This document shows, in pieces, positions 3,982 to 19,282 of a stretch of 20,881 nt of DNA. Every line of letters starts with the position of its first letter. Within the stretch, counting starts at the first letter, position 1. This stretch comes from a virus: positions 1 through 20,881 of the IMG/VR virus record IMGVR_UViG_3300042261_000257; one strand, 5' to 3'. Position numbers and translations under genes: made by a program. A model generated the notes under the pieces. That model was not told the DNA's origin, did no database searches, and worked only from the letters and a program-made list of their open reading frames with translations.

Positions 3982-6207
3982 TCAGTCCGATACTGTAATT
4001 TTCGGGTAAATAGCCAGGACGTGCATCGGCAACGGTTGGCTTTGCTTTATCACAACGGTCTTTTCCTTCGACCACCCCTGCGGGAACACGACCTCACGAT
4101 CACCGCTGAACATCGGCAGCGCCGTATCCATATAATCATCAGACGACCTAAACGGAATAACATCCTGCGAAACAGCCGTTCCAACGGAACACCCAACGCT
4201 TTCCTTGAGCCTGACAGAACATTTACCAAGCAACTTCGGTCTTGACTGCGCTGTTCCAGTAGCCGCGCCAGCCTCAATGTCCAACGTTTCAATCGTCGCG
4301 GTATACCCGATGCCAATATGAACCTTATTAGCCCCGCTGACAAGCGATATTGCCCCATCCGTCACAACCCTATCAGGATGAGCCGCGCCATCAACCAACA
4401 CCTGCACCGTCTCTCCTTCAAGATGCTCAAGCCCTGTGATCGTGGTAGTCTCCGCGCCATCATACGTCACGCCGGACTGGACGAAGAACGCATCCTCAAT
4501 ATCGCCAAAGTCAATCGTTGATAAATACTCAACATATCGTCTTGTCACTCCGTCAATAGTTCTTTTGATAACAAACCAAACCTGATCTTCTTCGCCGTTC
4601 GGAATGACAGCGACGTTCTCGACATCTCCGATCCATTCTTGACGTGACCACCCCTTGACCTCGTTCTTCTGTTCACGCGTCAACGTGGCGATACCACCAT
4701 CATTCAATACAGCCCAAAGGATGTTGAACGGATACCGCATCAGCGCCATTTCCTTGACACCACCATCAAGGATATGATCTGACAGATATGTGATGTTGTC
4801 TGTGATATACGCATCATTGTCAAGGCTGTATGCGAACTGACCTAAGACCTTGCCAGACCTCTCAACGTAGTACACATACGACCCGATACGCACAGGAACG
4901 ATGTTCGCAGATCCATTCTCATTCTGTTGCTTCGTCGTCGGAGGATTAGTCGCAGAGATAACCTCTGTCGCTGAACTATTCGACATCGTGAACGGACCGC
5001 CGGCACTCCCCAGGTTCAACGTAGCCGTCGGGTATATCCATAGCAACTTATCGACCTGGGCGGCGTTTGCCACGAAGAACACCGAGTCCTCGTCCGTATT
5101 CGTCAAGTCCGTACCGGTCTCACGTTGGTTGTTCTCATACTCGTCAATTACAGACCCCCACACGCCCAATGGCTGTGTCGTTGTGGCAATATGATAAAGC
5201 CTGTTCTCATAGAACTTGCAATCTTCAGGGTATCCTTTAAGCGCCGACCACGCACCCTCTGCCCAATCATCAGTAGCACCTGTCCCACCGAGAGTCGCCT
5301 TGACAGTAGCAGACGCGCTTGTTCCACTTGCAACCGCCGTGATCTGCACATACCCCTGCGTCGTGGAATGAACAATGCGCATATAAGTACCAACATGACC
5401 TGCGACAAAGAACGATGCGGATGCGGTGAGCGTTATAGATCCTGTGGTTGCAGAAGGCGTGATTGTCGTTGCGGTGGTGTTCAGGTCTAAGAACGCAGGC
5501 CATGAATACTGGTCGTATGTATACTCGGCAATAGTCCAACTGGTATGCCCAAGCCTTGAGAGTTTCCTCGGCGCATACCCGGCACAATCAATGTACATGA
5601 TGTCCGCTTGCTGTGTGACGCGCAACTTGCTAAGGTCAGCCGTCGCATACGGCGTGACCAACTCATAAACCTTCTCGATTGTTCCACCAGAAGTGTATGT
5701 CGTGTACCCGGTCGAATTGATGTTGTTCCCATCCTCATCGGTCAACTCAAACGTCGTCGATGTCCTGTTCTTAATCTTGAACCGCTTGTTATTCAACTGC
5801 GTCATCCCGCCAACGCTCTCAATGTCAATGGTGGAGCCGTTTGCCGGAGATACTCCACTCACAGTCACAACGGCTGGATTTGCTTTTGTAATTCCTGAAA
5901 TGTTTATTGCTGTTTCTATAACAGACCCAACTTGACGGAATACCCTCATGTAGAGGTTCCCGAACTCAAGCATATAACTATCGCCAGTTGAGAAAATGAA
6001 CGGAATGAGTTTAACAGCGTCAGACGCTTTCGTTCTGCCGGCATAGTGTGTGCCAGGCGTCTTGAACGCTGACCCGTAATGCGTGACAAGCACGTTCTCA
6101 AGCGTCTTGGCACAGGCAAAATACGGCACGGTATCGGTGCGTCCGTAGAGAGATGGTGACGCCTCTCCACCTGCGAAATTGACAATAGGTTTCGTTGACT
6201 GTGCCAT
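3982..6207 (-). CDS. Tail nozzle / tail tubular protein B-like protein
   Basis: A 741-residue structural protein. The N-terminus carries the signature NFAGGEASPSLYGR (residues 10-23), followed by KTLENVLVTHYGSAFKTPGT and YMLEFGNLYMRVF, the classic start of the gp12-like nozzle family. Residues of about 105-190 (ANPAVVTVSG ... GGMTQLNNKRF ... YTSGGT ... VYELVTPY) match the inserted beta domain often labelled E1-FCCH-like in these proteins. The remainder is beta-rich, with threonine/serine-rich repeats. The family forms the hexameric tube at the tip of the short tail through which DNA leaves. The start overlaps the stop of the tail adaptor gene by one base (TAATG), with GGGGA just upstream. Usual family length is 650-800, so it looks complete. 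Confidence 0.85.
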   Translation of the reverse strand: MAQSTKPIVNFAGGEASPSLYGRTDTVPYFACAKTLENVLVTHYGSAFKTPGTHYAGRTKASDAVKLIPFIFSTGDSYMLEFGNLYMRVFRQVGSVIETAINISGITKANPAVVTVSGVSPANGSTIDIESVGGMTQLNNKRFKIKNRTSTTFELTDEDGNNINSTGYTTYTSGGTIEKVYELVTPYATADLSKLRVTQQADIMYIDCAGYAPRKLSRLGHTSWTIAEYTYDQYSWPAFLDLNTTATTITPSATTGSITLTASASFFVAGHVGTYMRIVHSTTQGYVQITAVASGTSASATVKATLGGTGATDDWAEGAWSALKGYPEDCKFYENRLYHIATTTQPLGVWGSVIDEYENNQRETGTDLTNTDEDSVFFVANAAQVDKLLWIYPTATLNLGSAGGPFTMSNSSATEVISATNPPTTKQQNENGSANIVPVRIGSYVYYVERSGKVLGQFAYSLDNDAYITDNITYLSDHILDGGVKEMALMRYPFNILWAVLNDGGIATLTREQKNEVKGWSRQEWIGDVENVAVIPNGEEDQVWFVIKRTIDGVTRRYVEYLSTIDFGDIEDAFFVQSGVTYDGAETTTITGLEHLEGETVQVLVDGAAHPDRVVTDGAISLVSGANKVHIGIGYTATIETLDIEAGAATGTAQSRPKLLGKCSVRLKESVGCSVGTAVSQDVIPFRSSDDYMDTALPMFSGDREVVFPQGWSKEKTVVIKQSQPLPMHVLAIYPKITVSD

Positions 6208-6764: not shown

Positions 6765-7356
6765 TTGACCACTCCTTCGGGTGTCCGAGAACCTCAAGCG
6801 TGAAGCCTGAGAAACTCTTTAGTTTATCCCCATATATCTGTTTAAGTTTTTTGACCTCGTTATGCCTGTCCATGTCGTGCATATCCGTGTTGTCATTCGG
6901 CTTATAGAAATATCCGTTGCCGTCCATTGGCACTCCAACGAGAGCGACCCGCTCGTATCCGAGAAGCATTGCGAGATCGACACACGACAAACCACTGACT
7001 GATGTTCCGCCATTGAACCTCCATATCCAGTCTATCCTGCTCTCCTCGCTTACAGAATGGACAATCGACTTATCATCCGGCCACTCTGCCATACGCCACG
7101 CCTTGATCGCGCTCAACTGCTTCTTATGCCAAGAAAAAAGGTGCTTCGCGTTAGGAATGACCATCCCCGCCATATTGACGCAGATTATGTCAGTCCCTCC
7201 AAGAAGCACCTCGCTTTCTTTAAAGTCTGCCCACATTGACGATCCACCACCTACGATCCTGCACGTCCCACTGAACGACCCGGCTATCACAGGAATAGTC
7301 AGCTCAGGATATATTGACATCTCGAATCCATTGACGTAGCGGTGTCTATCGTCCAT
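6751..7356 (-). CDS. GT42/DUF115-like fold protein of unknown target
   Basis: A 201-residue protein. It has a nucleotide-binding-like first strand and loop, IVGGGSS (residues 34-40), then DIICVNMAG (residues 56-64), and later GGTSVSGLSCVDLAMLLGY and VALVGVPMDGNG (residues 116-148). This layout resembles the sialyltransferase (GT42, CstII-type) and DUF115/MptE-like Rossmann proteins, where a TSG-containing helix precedes the strand ending in G-x-D. A conserved role is not known. In those families the reaction is sugar transfer or a related nucleotide-sugar chemistry. Start ATG at 7356 has GGAG six bases upstream; a second ATG at residue 13 lacks a good site. It sits inside the structural operon between the decoration-like gene and the tail adaptor, so it may be a virion-linked or morphogenesis-linked enzyme. 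The function is an inference from motifs only. Confidence 0.6.
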   Translation of the reverse strand: MDDRHRYVNGFEMSIYPELTIPVIAGSFSGTCRIVGGGSSMWADFKESEVLLGGTDIICVNMAGMVIPNAKHLFSWHKKQLSAIKAWRMAEWPDDKSIVHSVSEESRIDWIWRFNGGTSVSGLSCVDLAMLLGYERVALVGVPMDGNGYFYKPNDNTDMHDMDRHNEVKKLKQIYGDKLKSFSGFTLEVLGHPKEWSNGGI

Positions 7357-12539: not shown

Positions 12540-13834
12540 CTTATCGCCGCCTTTTGCATATGTTTCCGTTCCGTGATGTCATTCCTTGACCTTACCGGCA
12601 TTGCGAACGTCAGTGCTAATGCATCACCAACATCCGTTGACCTTCCGAGCCGCTTCTTAATATCCTCTTTACTTTCAAGTCGCATCCTGTTCATCGCATC
12701 GAATGAGTATGTCGGCGTCACAAGATCGGCCTTCAGTTCCGGCGTCTGCGGCAACTGGCCAACATTCACGATCCATTCGCGCATCGTATCCCACATCTCC
12801 ATGCGCTTATTGAGATAGTGCTGATTGATCGGAGCAGACCCGAAGTTCACTTCATGCACCGAATACCCCAACTGACGCATCCTGTCAATGATCCCCTCAC
12901 CGCGTCCGGCGTCGATGAACACCGCGTCTGGTCTAACCCTGTCGCACAACGTCGTCAAGTGTCCTACCAGTTGCATATTGTCAACACCCTTGAACACCAT
13001 CGGCTCATCGGCCTTCTTGCCGGTCCGCACCTGGAACACAGACCGGTCATCACCGAACCGCGCAACGTCAACGCCAATGATCACCGGGTCATAATTGATG
13101 TCAACGATCTTATAATCCCTCGCGCATGAGGCAGATACCATATCGATCGTTATCAACACGTTATCAGACGCGGCCGTGAAGTCGCACAGGATCTCTTGCC
13201 TAAACGTGCTTTCAGCCATGACAGATTTAAGCTCTGCCATTTCATCCGCGTTTATGACGCCAGTCTCATCACCGCGATAACACCCAGCCCACCATGACGC
13301 GTCGTTCTCTTGCATTCGCTTCATGCCGTGATTATAGATGTCAAAGAACTGGTTTTGCCCCTTCGGCGTTCCCATGAACAGACACCACCCGTTGCGGTCC
13401 GATAGAGCCGGGCGGATGATCTCGGAGAACACCTCCGGCTTGATCTGCGCGTACTCATCGAGGACGCACCCATCGAGATACGTTCCGCGAAGCGCGTCTG
13501 GATTGTCCGCACCGAAGATGTATAGCTTAGATCCGTTAGGCAACTCAATGATGAGATCACCCTCGCGGACAACAACGCCCGGGATCACGGCACAGAACCT
13601 GCGGAAATAATCCCAGGAGATCAACTTCGCTTGTTTGAGGAACGGCGCGATATACGCATATCTACAATCAATCCTATTGTTTTTTAGCGCCATCTTTATT
13701 ATATGATTTATTGCAAGCACAGTCTTCCCGGCTCGTCTATGCATAACGAGAACATTAAATCTATGACTTTCTATTTTTGGGTGTATTTCTGTCTGTGGGT
13801 GCCGCGGTTTATAAGGTATGATTATTTCTGGCAT
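12536..13834 (-). CDS. terL: Terminase large subunit
   Basis: A 432-residue DNA packaging motor. The ATPase half has Walker A HRRAGKT (residues 32-38), Walker B CVLDE (residues 123-127) and the coupling motif GTPKG (155-159). The nuclease half has the RNase H-like acidic residues in GVDVARFGDD (D256), FIDAGRG (D308) and STDVGDALAL (D401, D404). All key residues are present, so both translocation and cleavage should work. The ATG at 13834 lies 13 bases inside the end of the HNH gene with only a weak GGA site, suggesting coupled translation. Order small terminase, HNH, large terminase, portal is standard. Length is slightly short but within the family range. Confidence 0.95.
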   Translation of the reverse strand: MPEIIIPYKPRHPQTEIHPKIESHRFNVLVMHRRAGKTVLAINHIIKMALKNNRIDCRYAYIAPFLKQAKLISWDYFRRFCAVIPGVVVREGDLIIELPNGSKLYIFGADNPDALRGTYLDGCVLDEYAQIKPEVFSEIIRPALSDRNGWCLFMGTPKGQNQFFDIYNHGMKRMQENDASWWAGCYRGDETGVINADEMAELKSVMAESTFRQEILCDFTAASDNVLITIDMVSASCARDYKIVDINYDPVIIGVDVARFGDDRSVFQVRTGKKADEPMVFKGVDNMQLVGHLTTLCDRVRPDAVFIDAGRGEGIIDRMRQLGYSVHEVNFGSAPINQHYLNKRMEMWDTMREWIVNVGQLPQTPELKADLVTPTYSFDAMNRMRLESKEDIKKRLGRSTDVGDALALTFAMPVRSRNDITERKHMQKAAIR

Positions 13835-14400
13835 TTAGCATCCATAAACTCTTGTTCTGTCATATCGTGTTTGGATAAGTTACAGAATTGACAAGAAACT
13901 CCGAGATTATTGTACTCATTATTACCACCACGAGAAATAGGTGTCTTGTGTTCAAGGTGATCTTTCCTAAATTCTATTGGGCTTAAACATAGATAACAAG
14001 TAAGAGTTCCGTATCTTTTAATGTTGTCCTCATATACCATTTGGACAACCTTTGTTGATAGCCCCTTCATGAGCGACCTGCGAACAGCCGCCCTTTTCTT
14101 TGCACCAAGCCGTCCTTTTATCGTTCTATAATACCTACGATGAACTTCGTTACATCGCTCTCTATTGTTTATACGATAATTCCTATCGTTTTCTGCTTTA
14201 CGCTCTCTATTTTCTTCTCTCCAACGCTTGTCGTTCTGTTTCTTTCTGTCAGCGTTTTTTATTCTATATGCCTTGCAATCTGCAAGGCATTTCTCTCTAT
14301 TTGAATAATAATAATCTTTCTTCCCTTGAAGGATTCTATCGCGATTAACACGACGATACTCGTCGTTGTATTCCTTCATATATGCTTTTTTATCAAACAT
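13822..14400 (-). CDS. HNH endonuclease next to terminase, with repeat-rich N-terminal arm
   Basis: A 192-residue protein. The C-terminal third holds a zinc-braced HNH nuclease: CYLC (C135, C138), DHLEHKTPISRGG (residues 147-159), NNLGV and CQFCN (C170, C173, N174). The N-terminal 95 residues are a highly charged array of about 18-residue repeats ending in NRER/NRDR-like sequence (near residues 19, 34, 49, 64 and 79), likely a helical DNA-binding arm. HNH proteins beside terminases (for example HK97 gp74) stimulate or are needed for cos cleavage by the terminase. Alternatively it could be a free-standing homing endonuclease that has settled here. Start ATG overlaps the small terminase stop by one base (TAATG). 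Its sequence looks more AT-rich than the terminase gene, hinting at later arrival. Confidence 0.85.
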   Translation of the reverse strand: MFDKKAYMKEYNDEYRRVNRDRILQGKKDYYYSNREKCLADCKAYRIKNADRKKQNDKRWREENRERKAENDRNYRINNRERCNEVHRRYYRTIKGRLGAKKRAAVRRSLMKGLSTKVVQMVYEDNIKRYGTLTCYLCLSPIEFRKDHLEHKTPISRGGNNEYNNLGVSCQFCNLSKHDMTEQEFMDAKCQK

Positions 14401-14710: not shown

Positions 14711-14739
14711 ACTATAATACTATTCATCAATTTAGTCAA
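14711..14739 (-). promoter_or_regulatory. Sigma-70 promoter of the packaging/structural operon
   Basis: On the minus strand TTGACT (14739-14734) and TATAGT (14716-14711) are separated by 17 bases, each one mismatch from consensus. The predicted transcript starts near 14704 and enters the small terminase gene and all the structural genes. The -35 box overlaps the stop codon of the 34-aa gene at 14736, so the upstream operon probably reads through as well. Confidence 0.75.
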
Positions 14740-14840
14740 ACTTTATTTTCACAATCTTCGCGCCAGATACATTTCTTGCATTTGTGTTTGTTTGGAAAGC
14801 ATTTGATCGTTGGAAAGTTACCGCGAGATTTTGCGCCCAT
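14736..14840 (-). CDS. Cysteine-rich micro-protein
   Basis: A 34-residue open frame (start MGAKSRGNFPTIKC) with four cysteines spaced C14-x6-C21-x2-C24-x5-C30, a compact possible zinc site in a lysine-rich chain. The ATG at 14840 has only AAAGAA upstream, so expression strength is doubtful. Its stop overlaps the -35 box of the late promoter. It is the last small gene before the late block. The cysteine pattern argues for real coding, but so short a frame can arise by chance. Confidence 0.5.
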   Translation of the reverse strand: MGAKSRGNFPTIKCFPNKHKCKKCIWREDCENKV

Positions 14841-14891: not shown

Positions 14892-15029
14892 TCACCACGT
14901 CACCACATAGGTCAAACCGCCCGCGAACAGCCAATAAAGGCATCTACGCCAGTCTCCATCAAGGCCGTAGGGAATTGCCGCGAGTATATCAATTATTATT
15001 AAGATTGTTGGTAGTATTTTTGGATTCAT
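14892..15029 (-). CDS. Small two-helix membrane protein
   Basis: A 45-residue open frame. Residues 4-19 (KILPTILIIIDILAAI) and 31-44 (LYWLFAGGLTYVVT) are hydrophobic and flank the polar turn YGLDGDWRRC. This N-P-K-x-L-x-x-I-L-I-x-x-D-x-x-A-A ... GDWRR-x-x-YW pattern is one I recognise from small phage and prophage membrane proteins of unknown role. The ATG at 15029 has GAGG five bases upstream. It overlaps the upstream 48-aa gene by 41 bases in a different frame. It is likely an inner membrane protein. A lysis accessory (holin-like) role is possible, but nothing here proves it. Confidence 0.7.
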   Translation of the reverse strand: MNPKILPTILIIIDILAAIPYGLDGDWRRCLYWLFAGGLTYVVTW

Positions 15030-15135
15030 AAATCCTCACGATCTGCCCGTTGAATGTTGAAAGAATAAGGGCCAGGAGATCCATTTCCTGGTCCGTGAAA
15101 CCGTGTTTTGATTGGAATTGTTGGCGAGTGAGCAT
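14989..15135 (-). CDS. 48-aa hypothetical protein
   Basis: A short acidic/polar protein (MLTRQQFQSKHGFTDQEMDL, then LLALILSTFNG-like helix, then an asparagine-rich end). The T-R-x-Q-F-x-x-K-H-G-F-T-D-x-E-M pattern looks like a genuine small helical phage protein, but I cannot assign a family. No clear Shine-Dalgarno site precedes the ATG at 15135; the upstream bases are AT-rich (TTTAACATATAT). It lies just beyond the putative origin and overlaps the membrane micro-gene. Confidence 0.55.
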   Translation of the reverse strand: MLTRQQFQSKHGFTDQEMDLLALILSTFNGQIVRIYESKNTTNNLNNN

Positions 15136-15167: not shown

Positions 15168-15176
15168 TGTGGAAAA
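15168..15176 (-). other. DnaA-box-like nonamer
   Basis: On the minus strand TTTTCCACA matches the Escherichia coli DnaA box TTATCCACA at eight of nine positions. It lies eight bases from the first iteron and next to an AT-rich stretch (15131-15165), so it fits an origin. A single nonamer can occur by chance. Confidence 0.4.
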
Positions 15177-15183
15177 CCTGTTA

Positions 15184-15414
15184 GGAACCGACGAACCGAA
15201 AAAAGTGCCATACCTTTTATATTTGAGGTCCCTTATTATTATAATAATAAGGGAAATTGTATACAGGGGATTAGAAAATATTCGGTTACTCGGTTCGTCG
15301 CTAGTTAAGTTATGTATTTTCATAGGTTTACAAGGAACCGAGTATTGGTTCCGCTTGGTTCCTCGGTTCCAATTTTGGAACCGAAAATGGAACCGAATTT
15401 TTACGTTCGGTTCA
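15184..15414. repeat. Iteron cluster, candidate replication origin
   Basis: The octamer GGAACCGA or its complement occurs exactly at 15184, 15334, 15377 and 15389 (plus) and 15363 (minus), and with one mismatch at 15192 (plus) and at 15282, 15290, 15345, 15355 and 15407 (minus): eleven copies in 231 bases. Several pair into dyads, such as 10-bp arms TCGGTTCCAA around TT at 15363-15384 and GAACCGAA/TTCGGTTC at 15390-15413. An 11-bp inverted pair (15189-15199 and 15290-15300) flanks a perfect palindrome. The cluster starts 26 bases past the stop of an SF3 helicase gene. In satellite phage P4 the alpha helicase binds octameric iterons at ori and crr, which is a close parallel. No gene fills this 304-base gap. 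Confidence 0.7.
15230..15253. repeat. Perfect 24-bp AT-rich palindrome
   Basis: The half-site CCCTTATTATTA is followed directly by its exact reverse complement with no spacer. It sits near the midpoint between two inverted copies of CGACGAACCGA. It could extrude as a cruciform, serve as an origin-unwinding or protein-binding element, or be a bidirectional terminator-like stem. Its role is not known. Confidence 0.7.
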
Positions 15415-15439: not shown

Positions 15440-16777
15440 TTATTCATTGATAAATCCTAAAGTTATCTGCTCATATTCAATATTATTCGCGCTGTTCTTG
15501 AACGAGATATTAGGCCAATATTTCTCACGATCGCCTGTTGTGCGCTGTGCGTCTTTCTTTGTATGATTGCGGTATGCGGAGAAGAAGCGATTATTGAACT
15601 TGCGATGAGCCGGGCAACGATGTCCGTGATCGGATGACCATTTCTTGAATAACTTGTATAGACCGGCCTTGGTAATGCCGTATTCTGGAGTATCAATCTC
15701 AATTTCTTCATCGACAAATGCCATGATCGGGTTGTTATCAACACGGATCTCGGCAACGTACTTGTCCATTGATGTGTTCTTGGTAAACCCTTGTTTGACA
15801 AGCCTGCGGTATCCCGCGACGCACCAGCGGAATATCCCGGGTAGTTCAGATTCAAGGCGGGTCTTTAAGCCGGTATCCTGTTCACCATCCTTGAACTCGA
15901 CCTCGAACGGAACCAAGAGCATGCGGCGATAGAACGCGGTCGTGGCATCGTCAATGGTTGGGAACTCGTTTAGGCAGTAGATCAGCTTGCAGAATGGAGA
16001 ATGGGTGTAGGTCGGGACGAACTTCTCATTGAATAGGACCGGATCTCCCGATGTAACCTTGCGGAAAGTTTCCTCGAAGCGTTCCGCGTTTCGCGGGAGG
16101 TCGCTGTCGATGTTGATGTACTTGCCTATGATATTGCACCGCAGGACAGGGTTGGATAGGGATTCAAGGGATACGGCGGATACGTTCTGCCTGCCAAAGA
16201 CCTTCGATATGGTCTCTGCAAACACGGACTTGCCGTTGGACCCGTTGCCGATAAGGAACAAAGCCTTCTCGAAATGACAGGACTTCATAAGGCAGTAGCC
16301 TGCGAACTCTTGGAGAATGTCCATCTTCTGTTGGTCGTTCTGCGTGACGGACTTGAGGAAATCCATCCACATTGGCGCGTCGATCCCGGTCTTGAGCGTA
16401 TAAGGCAACTGAATTGTGATAAGGTATTGCGGGTCATGTTCTGCAACAATGTTCGATCTGATGTCGTATAGGCAATCTTGGAAGCAGAATATCCCGTCAG
16501 GGTTAAGCCGGTCAGGATCAACGGCTTTCATAGCCTCGATGTTCTTGATGACATCGTTGCGCTTCGCGGGTGATAAGGCGCGTCCGTATGGCATGGACAT
16601 AATGATCTGGTGCAGTTCAGCATCGCACTTAGGGGACTTGATCTGCTCATAGTACCCGTTGTGGTAGTGGTATATCTTGCCGAACGCTTGGACGGATATG
16701 AACTTGTGCGCCTTGCACACTCGCTCTGCCATGACGAGCGTGACATCGGACTTTGGCTTGTTGTCGTCGTCGATCAT
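15440..16777 (-). CDS. SF3 replicative helicase (phage P4 alpha / D5 type, without primase domain)
   Basis: A 445-residue ATPase. Residues of about 60-165 match the D5_N-like domain (IFCFQDCLYDI ... LPYTL ... MWMDFL ... LQEFAGYCL). The SF3 core has Walker A GNGSNGKS (177-184), Walker B INIDSD (221-226), motif C-like LIYCLNEFPTIDD with N270, and the arginine pair R284-R285. A C-terminal winged-helix-like region follows. Such helicases form hexamers and unwind DNA from an origin. The archaeo-eukaryotic primase domain found at the N-terminus of P4 alpha is absent here (only about 60 residues precede D5_N), so priming must come from elsewhere. AGGA lies six bases before the ATG. Iterons follow its stop codon and a structured RNA leader precedes it. 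Confidence 0.9.
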   Translation of the reverse strand: MIDDDNKPKSDVTLVMAERVCKAHKFISVQAFGKIYHYHNGYYEQIKSPKCDAELHQIIMSMPYGRALSPAKRNDVIKNIEAMKAVDPDRLNPDGIFCFQDCLYDIRSNIVAEHDPQYLITIQLPYTLKTGIDAPMWMDFLKSVTQNDQQKMDILQEFAGYCLMKSCHFEKALFLIGNGSNGKSVFAETISKVFGRQNVSAVSLESLSNPVLRCNIIGKYINIDSDLPRNAERFEETFRKVTSGDPVLFNEKFVPTYTHSPFCKLIYCLNEFPTIDDATTAFYRRMLLVPFEVEFKDGEQDTGLKTRLESELPGIFRWCVAGYRRLVKQGFTKNTSMDKYVAEIRVDNNPIMAFVDEEIEIDTPEYGITKAGLYKLFKKWSSDHGHRCPAHRKFNNRFFSAYRNHTKKDAQRTTGDREKYWPNISFKNSANNIEYEQITLGFINE

Positions 16778-19025: not shown

Positions 19026-19184
19026 TTAAACGGACTTGGCGGCCGTCTTTTTACAATACTGCTCAAGAGCCTCCTCTATGATAGCCTTCTTCAGCCGACG
19101 CTCGCGCTTCGCCTTGCGCTCGATCGCGTCATCAATGTCCCTGCGGATAATAATTGTTACGACTTTTGTGTCTGGTATTTTCAT
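19026..19184 (-). CDS. Ribbon-helix-helix (Arc/MetJ-type) regulator
   Basis: A 52-residue protein (MKIPDTKVVTIIIRRDIDDAI start). One strand, KVVTIIIRR, is followed by two helices, DIDDAIERKAKRER and LKKAIIEEALEQYCKK, the usual ribbon-helix-helix design that dimerises to bind DNA through the paired strands. The ATG at 19184 is preceded by AAGGAGG at a short spacing; the longer frame from 19220 has no such site and overlaps the upstream micro-gene. Being the second gene after the divergent promoters, it may repress one or both of them. The nearby palindrome at 19341-19359 is a possible target. The target is inferred. Confidence 0.7.
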   Translation of the reverse strand: MKIPDTKVVTIIIRRDIDDAIERKAKRERRLKKAIIEEALEQYCKKTAAKSV

Positions 19185-19192
19185 AAGCCTCC

Positions 19193-19282
19193 TTAACAGT
19201 AAACTCTGACAAGCTCCCACTTGCCGTTGATAAGTTCATATTCCTTGACGAGCCTGCCCTCTCTGACGATCTTTGTTTTCAT
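19193..19282 (-). CDS. 29-aa micro-protein, first gene of the early operon
   Basis: A short open frame (MKTKIVREGRLVKEYELING, then K-W-E-L-V-R-V-Y-C) with a strong GGAGG seven bases before its ATG. It looks like two or three beta strands. The perfect ribosome site just after a good promoter supports expression. It may be a true micro-protein or may serve to couple ribosomes into the next gene, whose start lies nine bases after its stop. No family recognised. Confidence 0.6.
   Translation of the reverse strand: MKTKIVREGRLVKEYELINGKWELVRVYC

Follow-up and report, generated by a model that had tools for sequence, protein, structure and literature searches.

A probable replication origin with the SaPI/PICI rep-ori layout behind the SF3/D5-type helicase gene of an uncharacterised phage

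In the SaPIs, an iteron origin is located directly downstream of rep and is recognised by the C-terminal domain of the Rep protein (PMC7581432). In the origins of PICIs, an AT-rich region always lies between two sets of iterons, and together with rep these origins support autonomous plasmid replication (PMC6092414). A further initiator helicase, SCCmec Cch2, has been compared with Cch and MCM helicases (PMC7581432). The SaPI/PICI rep-ori replicon (SaPIbov1, SaPI5, EcCICFT073) is the closest known system to the locus described here, a repeat array at positions 15184-15414 of a viral DNA of 20,881 nucleotides (IMG/VR record IMGVR_UViG_3300042261_000257, hereafter the window, meaning the entire stretch analysed), and by its layout the origin belongs to that kind. 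Two sets of a helicase-specific word are arranged around an AT-rich core behind the gene of the presumed initiator, and we regard it as very probable that this region is a replication origin.

Within these 231 bases, the word GGAACCGA is found eleven times with at most one mismatch, five copies being exact and six carrying one mismatch, with five on the plus and six on the minus strand. The number, span and double orientation that an earlier note on this DNA had reported are thus reproduced, and the perfect dyads it described are genuine as well (e.g., 15363-15372/15375-15384, with perfect 10-nt arms and a 2-nt gap). The same note had named the density of the octamer elsewhere as a check: the remaining ~20.6 kb of the record hold only twelve copies at one mismatch or less and no exact one, and all five exact copies of the entire 20.9-kb record fall within the array. 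A de novo k-mer scan without any preset word has likewise singled out this interval, in which repeats (GAACCGA, eight copies) are packed more densely than anywhere else in the record; none of 100 fourth-order Markov simulations has matched this count, their maximum being five. Followed in the reading direction of the helicase, the stop codon ends at 15440, and the first copy (15414-15407) comes 25 bases on; the order is then set A of seven copies, set B as a pair, the AT-rich core, set C as a second pair, and an ORF of 48 codons. Set A (15334-15414, both strands) has its copies at 15334+, 15345-, 15355-, 15363-, 15377+, 15389+, and 15407-. Pair B (15282-15297, minus strand) consists of two one-mismatch copies in an 8-bp step, and pair C, past the core (15184-15199, plus strand), of an exact and a one-mismatch copy with the same step.

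Repeats of this kind could also form a copy-number control or initiator-sequestering site that is read by the helicase in the manner of P4 crr, with replication starting elsewhere. In iteron plasmids and in P4, iterons have a part in control in addition to initiation, and this double use lends the idea some weight; an AT-rich core between two repeat sets is, however, the published layout of a PICI origin, and a search for a second array of GGAACCGA across the partial, possibly incomplete 20.9-kb record has found none, so that we consider a control site very unlikely. A second origin may exist elsewhere in the genome. For the array itself, we retain the reading as an origin.

The core between the two repeat sets (15200-15281), which we propose as the melting site, is 73% AT compared to 52% for the record, and the equivalent cores of two close relatives, L006 and L070, reach 75%. 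The earlier note had described AT-rich flanks; the AT-richness is real, but it resides mainly in this internal core and not in flanks. The core also contains a perfect 26-bp palindrome (TCCCTTATTATTA/TAATAATAAGGGA, 15229-15254), which brings to mind pRN1, whose replication gene is followed by a stem-loop that serves as the origin (PMC4234260), and under such a model the stem-loop would be the functional element and the repeats incidental. However, no comparable stem beyond shuffles has been detected in the cores of L006 and L070 (z -0.5 and +0.5), whereas the repeats recur in both; a conserved stem-loop has accordingly been rejected, and the probability left to a pRN1-type origin is practically negligible. 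The DnaA-like nonamer TTTTCCACA (15168-15176, minus strand), which had been counted as part of the origin, is not supported by the comparison: it is the only box at one mismatch in the origin, the window as a whole contains 18 of them, and since the nonamer is absent from the origin regions of L006 and L070, it has been set aside as unconserved. The GC skew of the plus strand does not mark the site cleanly, as it is positive only over the helicase gene and drops again beyond. Between 15000 and 17000, this positive skew over the helicase gene coexists with a minus-strand location of the gene and its neighbours, and given the skew, a foreign origin of the helicase gene is possible.

The proposed initiator is an SF3/D5-type helicase of 445 aa (15440-16777, minus strand) with the Pfam domains D5_N, DUF5906, and Pox_D5 and a match to PHROG 864 (E 2e-79), which groups with phage DNA primase/helicase families. 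The best match in profile searches has been SaPI5 Rep (7ola, E 8e-24), covering the helicase and the C-terminal domain, and the same primase-helicase is the top hit of the structural model in Foldseek and aligns with it in VIA-align at Z 31.6 over 389 residues, followed by poxvirus D5/E5, the ASFV primase-polymerase, and NrS-1. The AF2 model used for these comparisons was built from a 37-sequence alignment and has a mean pLDDT of 89.5, compared to 33 with a two-sequence alignment. Its C-terminal ~80 residues form a winged helix, with a strand at 366-369, helices at 370-383 and 391-401, and the hairpin strands at 420-426; this domain, the proposed iteron reader, spans residues of about 347-428 (15494-15739, minus strand; Pfam Pox_D5 at 347-419). 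Its wing hairpin (residues 404-426; 15500-15568, minus strand), which we propose to set part of the word, is modelled less surely, with 10-residue blocks at pLDDT 63-81. The protein begins at the D5_N region and lacks a primase domain; a neighbouring gene for a primase has not been recognised in the partial 20.9-kb record either.

Only three members of the window's own lineage are known, namely the window, L006/L059 (IMGVR_UViG_3300047552_000244; helicase 62% identical) and L070 (IMGVR_UViG_3300044476_000078; 54%). Megablast of the window against phages has returned no match, and searches of viral and genome collections with the helicase alone or with a two-row alignment have recovered only L006, while a Walker-A DNA pattern has been far more productive. 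In L006, the array (7075-7281) holds six exact copies of GGAAACGA, four straight behind the helicase stop and a closing pair past the AT-rich core, the counterpart of pair C lying at 7266-7281. In L070, TGAACG occurs eight times at the equivalent place behind the helicase, a number reached by none of 200 simulations. The altered octamers at the equivalent site that the earlier note had suggested looking for in relatives have thus been found, and the three words can be aligned as GGAACCGA (window), GGAAACGA (L006), and TGAACG(GA) (L070). The first copy in L070 (TGAACGGAT, 5019-5027 of the reverse complement) includes the helicase stop codon. While the helicase cores of L059 and L070 are 75% and 73% identical to that of the window, their C-terminal domains are so at only 58% and 34%; the more diverged C-terminal domain appears to accompany the more diverged word, although three sequences prove little.

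The genes beyond the array allow a further reading, in which the small terminase would recognise the repeats as a packaging site (pac or cos). A probable small terminase gene starts about 520 bp downstream of the array, and in both the window and L006 it is the next longer gene, situated beside terL. Yet TerS is 86% identical between the window and L006 although their words differ, and homologous loci with an array have VRR-NUC, unrelated genes, or a plasmid DEAD/DEAH helicase gene in this place; for both reasons, a packaging site is highly improbable. Directly after the origin, the window has a 48-aa ORF (14989-15135, minus strand) without PHROG match. It is conserved in both relatives, from 7283 in L006 and from 5300 in the reverse complement of L070, and the three small ORFs, 41-71 aa in length, have an FNG-x-I motif in common. 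A second small ORF, Cys/Lys-rich (MGAKSR...CKKCIW), is located at 14736-14840 (minus strand) and conserved in L006 from 7398. Between terS and terL, the window carries an HNH endonuclease gene (13822-14400, minus strand), which looks like an insertion, since the two terminase genes are adjacent in L006.

Beyond this lineage, the Walker-A pattern has yielded 80 viral loci among the matches listed, 77 of them homologous by blastp, and for the 67 homologous loci with enough flank we have asked whether the repeat density behind the helicase lies in the top 1% of its locus. Such a tile is found directly behind the helicase in 42 of the 67 loci; among the controls, it occurs at 8 of 299 ends of other ORFs and, in 1 of 50 cases, at the 5' end of the helicase gene. 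The survey loci are not independent; once they are clustered at 60% identity, a weighted 12.1 of 30 have the tile, which still exceeds the control rate of ~3% by far. The words of the arrays vary from lineage to lineage, and four distant named homologs, from Latilactobacillus, Streptococcus, and Listeria phages and from an Alicyclobacillus plasmid, have words of their own in the same layout. These distributions indicate that a rep-ori layout is probably widespread in phages having D5-type helicases. It is not universal in the helicase family, because the remaining 25 of the 67 loci have no top-1% cluster behind the helicase and the enterobacterial homologs (9NA-like and Gorganvirus; L014, L015, L017-L019) have none either; the same absence has been noted for the Enterococcus phage L016. 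Taken with the arrays 3' of the helicase in the relatives, the survey counts strongly support the origin proposed in the earlier note, and the array of the window is most likely the replication origin of the phage, as far as sequence comparison can tell.

The family also offers a view on the protein that reads the word. Among pairs with a helicase core identity of at least 0.85, the mean word similarity is 0.79 where the C-terminal domains are at least 0.9 identical (n = 47 pairs) and falls to 0.09 where this identity is below 0.7 (n = 7). The coupling becomes very clear in the DNA of L056 and L102, which are 93-100% identical through the helicase as far as position -300 relative to the stop. 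From there to +273, a stretch that comprises the C-terminal domain and the repeats, identity falls to about 20-70%, and the sequences are again 84-99% identical (mostly 96-99%) from +273 to +1173. Judged from this alignment, the pair is a natural exchange of the putative reader plus its sites, and the swapped block holds only the C-terminal domain and the array. Since the C-terminal end of the helicase varies jointly with the repeats among these phages, the comparison with relatives indicates that this end is the likely reader. The earlier suggestion that the helicase itself reads the iterons has thereby gained strong support, from words that change with the winged helix and from the homology to SaPI Rep in both sequence and fold.

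The same coupling bears on the possibility that the array is a set of operators, by which a phage regulator acts on a promoter in the AT-rich core and so controls the late operon that runs leftward (small genes, terminase, head, tail). The array is indeed located upstream of this operon, an Arc-like repressor gene is present at 19026-19220, and promoter-like matches occur on the minus strand at 15263-15235 and 15146-15117; these matches are, however, at chance level (four found compared to a mean of 2.8 in shuffles), and eleven copies over 231 bp are a large number for an operator. Operators also leave unexplained why, in relatives, the word varies with the C-terminal domain of the helicase itself and why the block swapped between L056 and L102 is confined to this domain and the array. 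An operator array is therefore unlikely as the explanation, though operator function is possible as a second role beside that of an origin.

Returning to the helicase as reader, near-identical pairs narrow the coupling down to the wing, since in the relatives the changes that accompany a word switch fall entirely or mostly within the hairpin. Of the 440 residues of the L088 and L083 helicases, only four differ, each of them located in the wing hairpin (N408K, G409S, K410G, and S412R, numbered as in the window), yet the word is AACCCTCCC in L088 and AACTATGCACC in L083; L029, with the word AACTGTCTACC, differs from L088 at six wing residues and four others. L093 and L094 have the helix-turn-helix in common, the differences between their C-terminal domains being limited to wing and tail, and their words are AACTATCCC and AACTATTCAC; in L033 and L053, the helix-turn-helix is shared at 98%, but neither the wing nor the word is. 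Conversely, L053 and L092 have wing and word in common on different helix-turn-helix backgrounds, and in a record of Enterococcus villorum, found by searching genome contigs with L088, wing and word equal those of its relatives. For pairs with a helix-turn-helix identity of at least 0.95, the mean word similarity is 0.97 with a matching wing (n = 37 pairs) and 0.06 with a different one (n = 35, which go back to about five or six independent switches). Over all distant pairs, the wing is not ahead of the helix-turn-helix in its relation to word similarity (partial rank correlations 0.08 vs 0.31), which is expected if both elements contribute, and the claim for the wing is based on the stratified comparison and on the individual near-identical pairs. 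The sharpest cases belong to other phage lineages than the window's, one cluster being from Enterococcus prophages; that the wing sets the word is accordingly strongly suggested for some lineages and may hold for the window's lineage as well. The more detailed assignment, in which a variable part of the word is set by the hairpin, whose coding sequence lies within ~150 bases of the origin, and a more constant part is read by the helix-turn-helix, has in our judgement even chances of being correct.

We infer from these observations that the helicase of the window binds GGAACCGA, that the core melts, and that replication starts within 15184-15414. The order of events proposed here has been modelled on SaPI Rep (PMC7581432) and the PICI origins (PMC6092414): the C-terminal winged helix of the 445-aa helicase would bind the copies of the word, the helicase would assemble on both sides of the AT-rich core, and upon melting of the core, hexamers would load and unwind the DNA. 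Priming and synthesis would be left to other proteins, as the helicase is devoid of a primase domain and no primase gene has been recognised in the partial record. An origin and its initiator can thereby be assigned with confidence in an uncharacterised phage lineage. As the putative reader adjoins its sites, one short exchange would swap both, and if this holds, the adjacency would explain why the origins are placed directly behind the helicase genes; phage origins would then have a protein-DNA recognition code that can be read in part. The natural swaps of helicase end and repeats, and the helicases that differ in only four wing residues but have different words, render the choice of origin by such initiators directly testable with small proteins and short DNA. 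Within the literature that could be searched, the joint exchange of wing and word may be the new part.

Compared with the described systems, the locus shares with pRN1 ORF904 a helicase with a C-terminal winged helix and an origin directly downstream of its gene, but the pRN1 origin is a stem-loop without iterons, and ORF904 has a fused prim-pol domain. The earlier note had taken P4 alpha as its model, and the likeness of an iteron-reading helicase holds, as in both cases an SF3 helicase has a C-terminal winged helix that reads, or in the window would read, short origin repeats (for P4 alpha, PMC4234260); P4 alpha is nevertheless less close than SaPI/PICI Rep. Unlike the window helicase, which starts at D5_N without a primase domain, P4 alpha, acting with ori1 and crr, has a fused Toprim-type primase, and P4 has in crr a second remote site, whereas no second cluster is present in the possibly incomplete record of the window. 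SCCmec Cch2 and its putative origin are similar in that the initiator helicase binds repeats directly downstream of its own gene via the C-terminal domain (PMC7581432), but these are 5-bp iterons in a 23-bp direct repeat region on a chromosomal cassette. Classification of the window itself as a PICI, i.e., a satellite island with integrase and master repressor and without virion genes, has been rejected because head and tail genes are carried (terminase, portal/adaptor, major head, and tail genes are present). From the SaPI/PICI rep-ori systems, the window thus differs in that it belongs to a phage, which has head, tail, and terminase genes of its own, and not to a satellite island, in the absence of a primase domain or a recognised primase neighbour in the record, and in its word, GGAACCGA. 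It resembles them in a D5/SF3 helicase with a C-terminal winged helix and an origin directly 3' of the gene, in two iteron sets (A and B at 15282-15414, C at 15184-15199) around a 73% AT core, in an array that starts 25 bases past the initiator stop and is similarly placed in L006 and L070, and in a word that varies between relatives.
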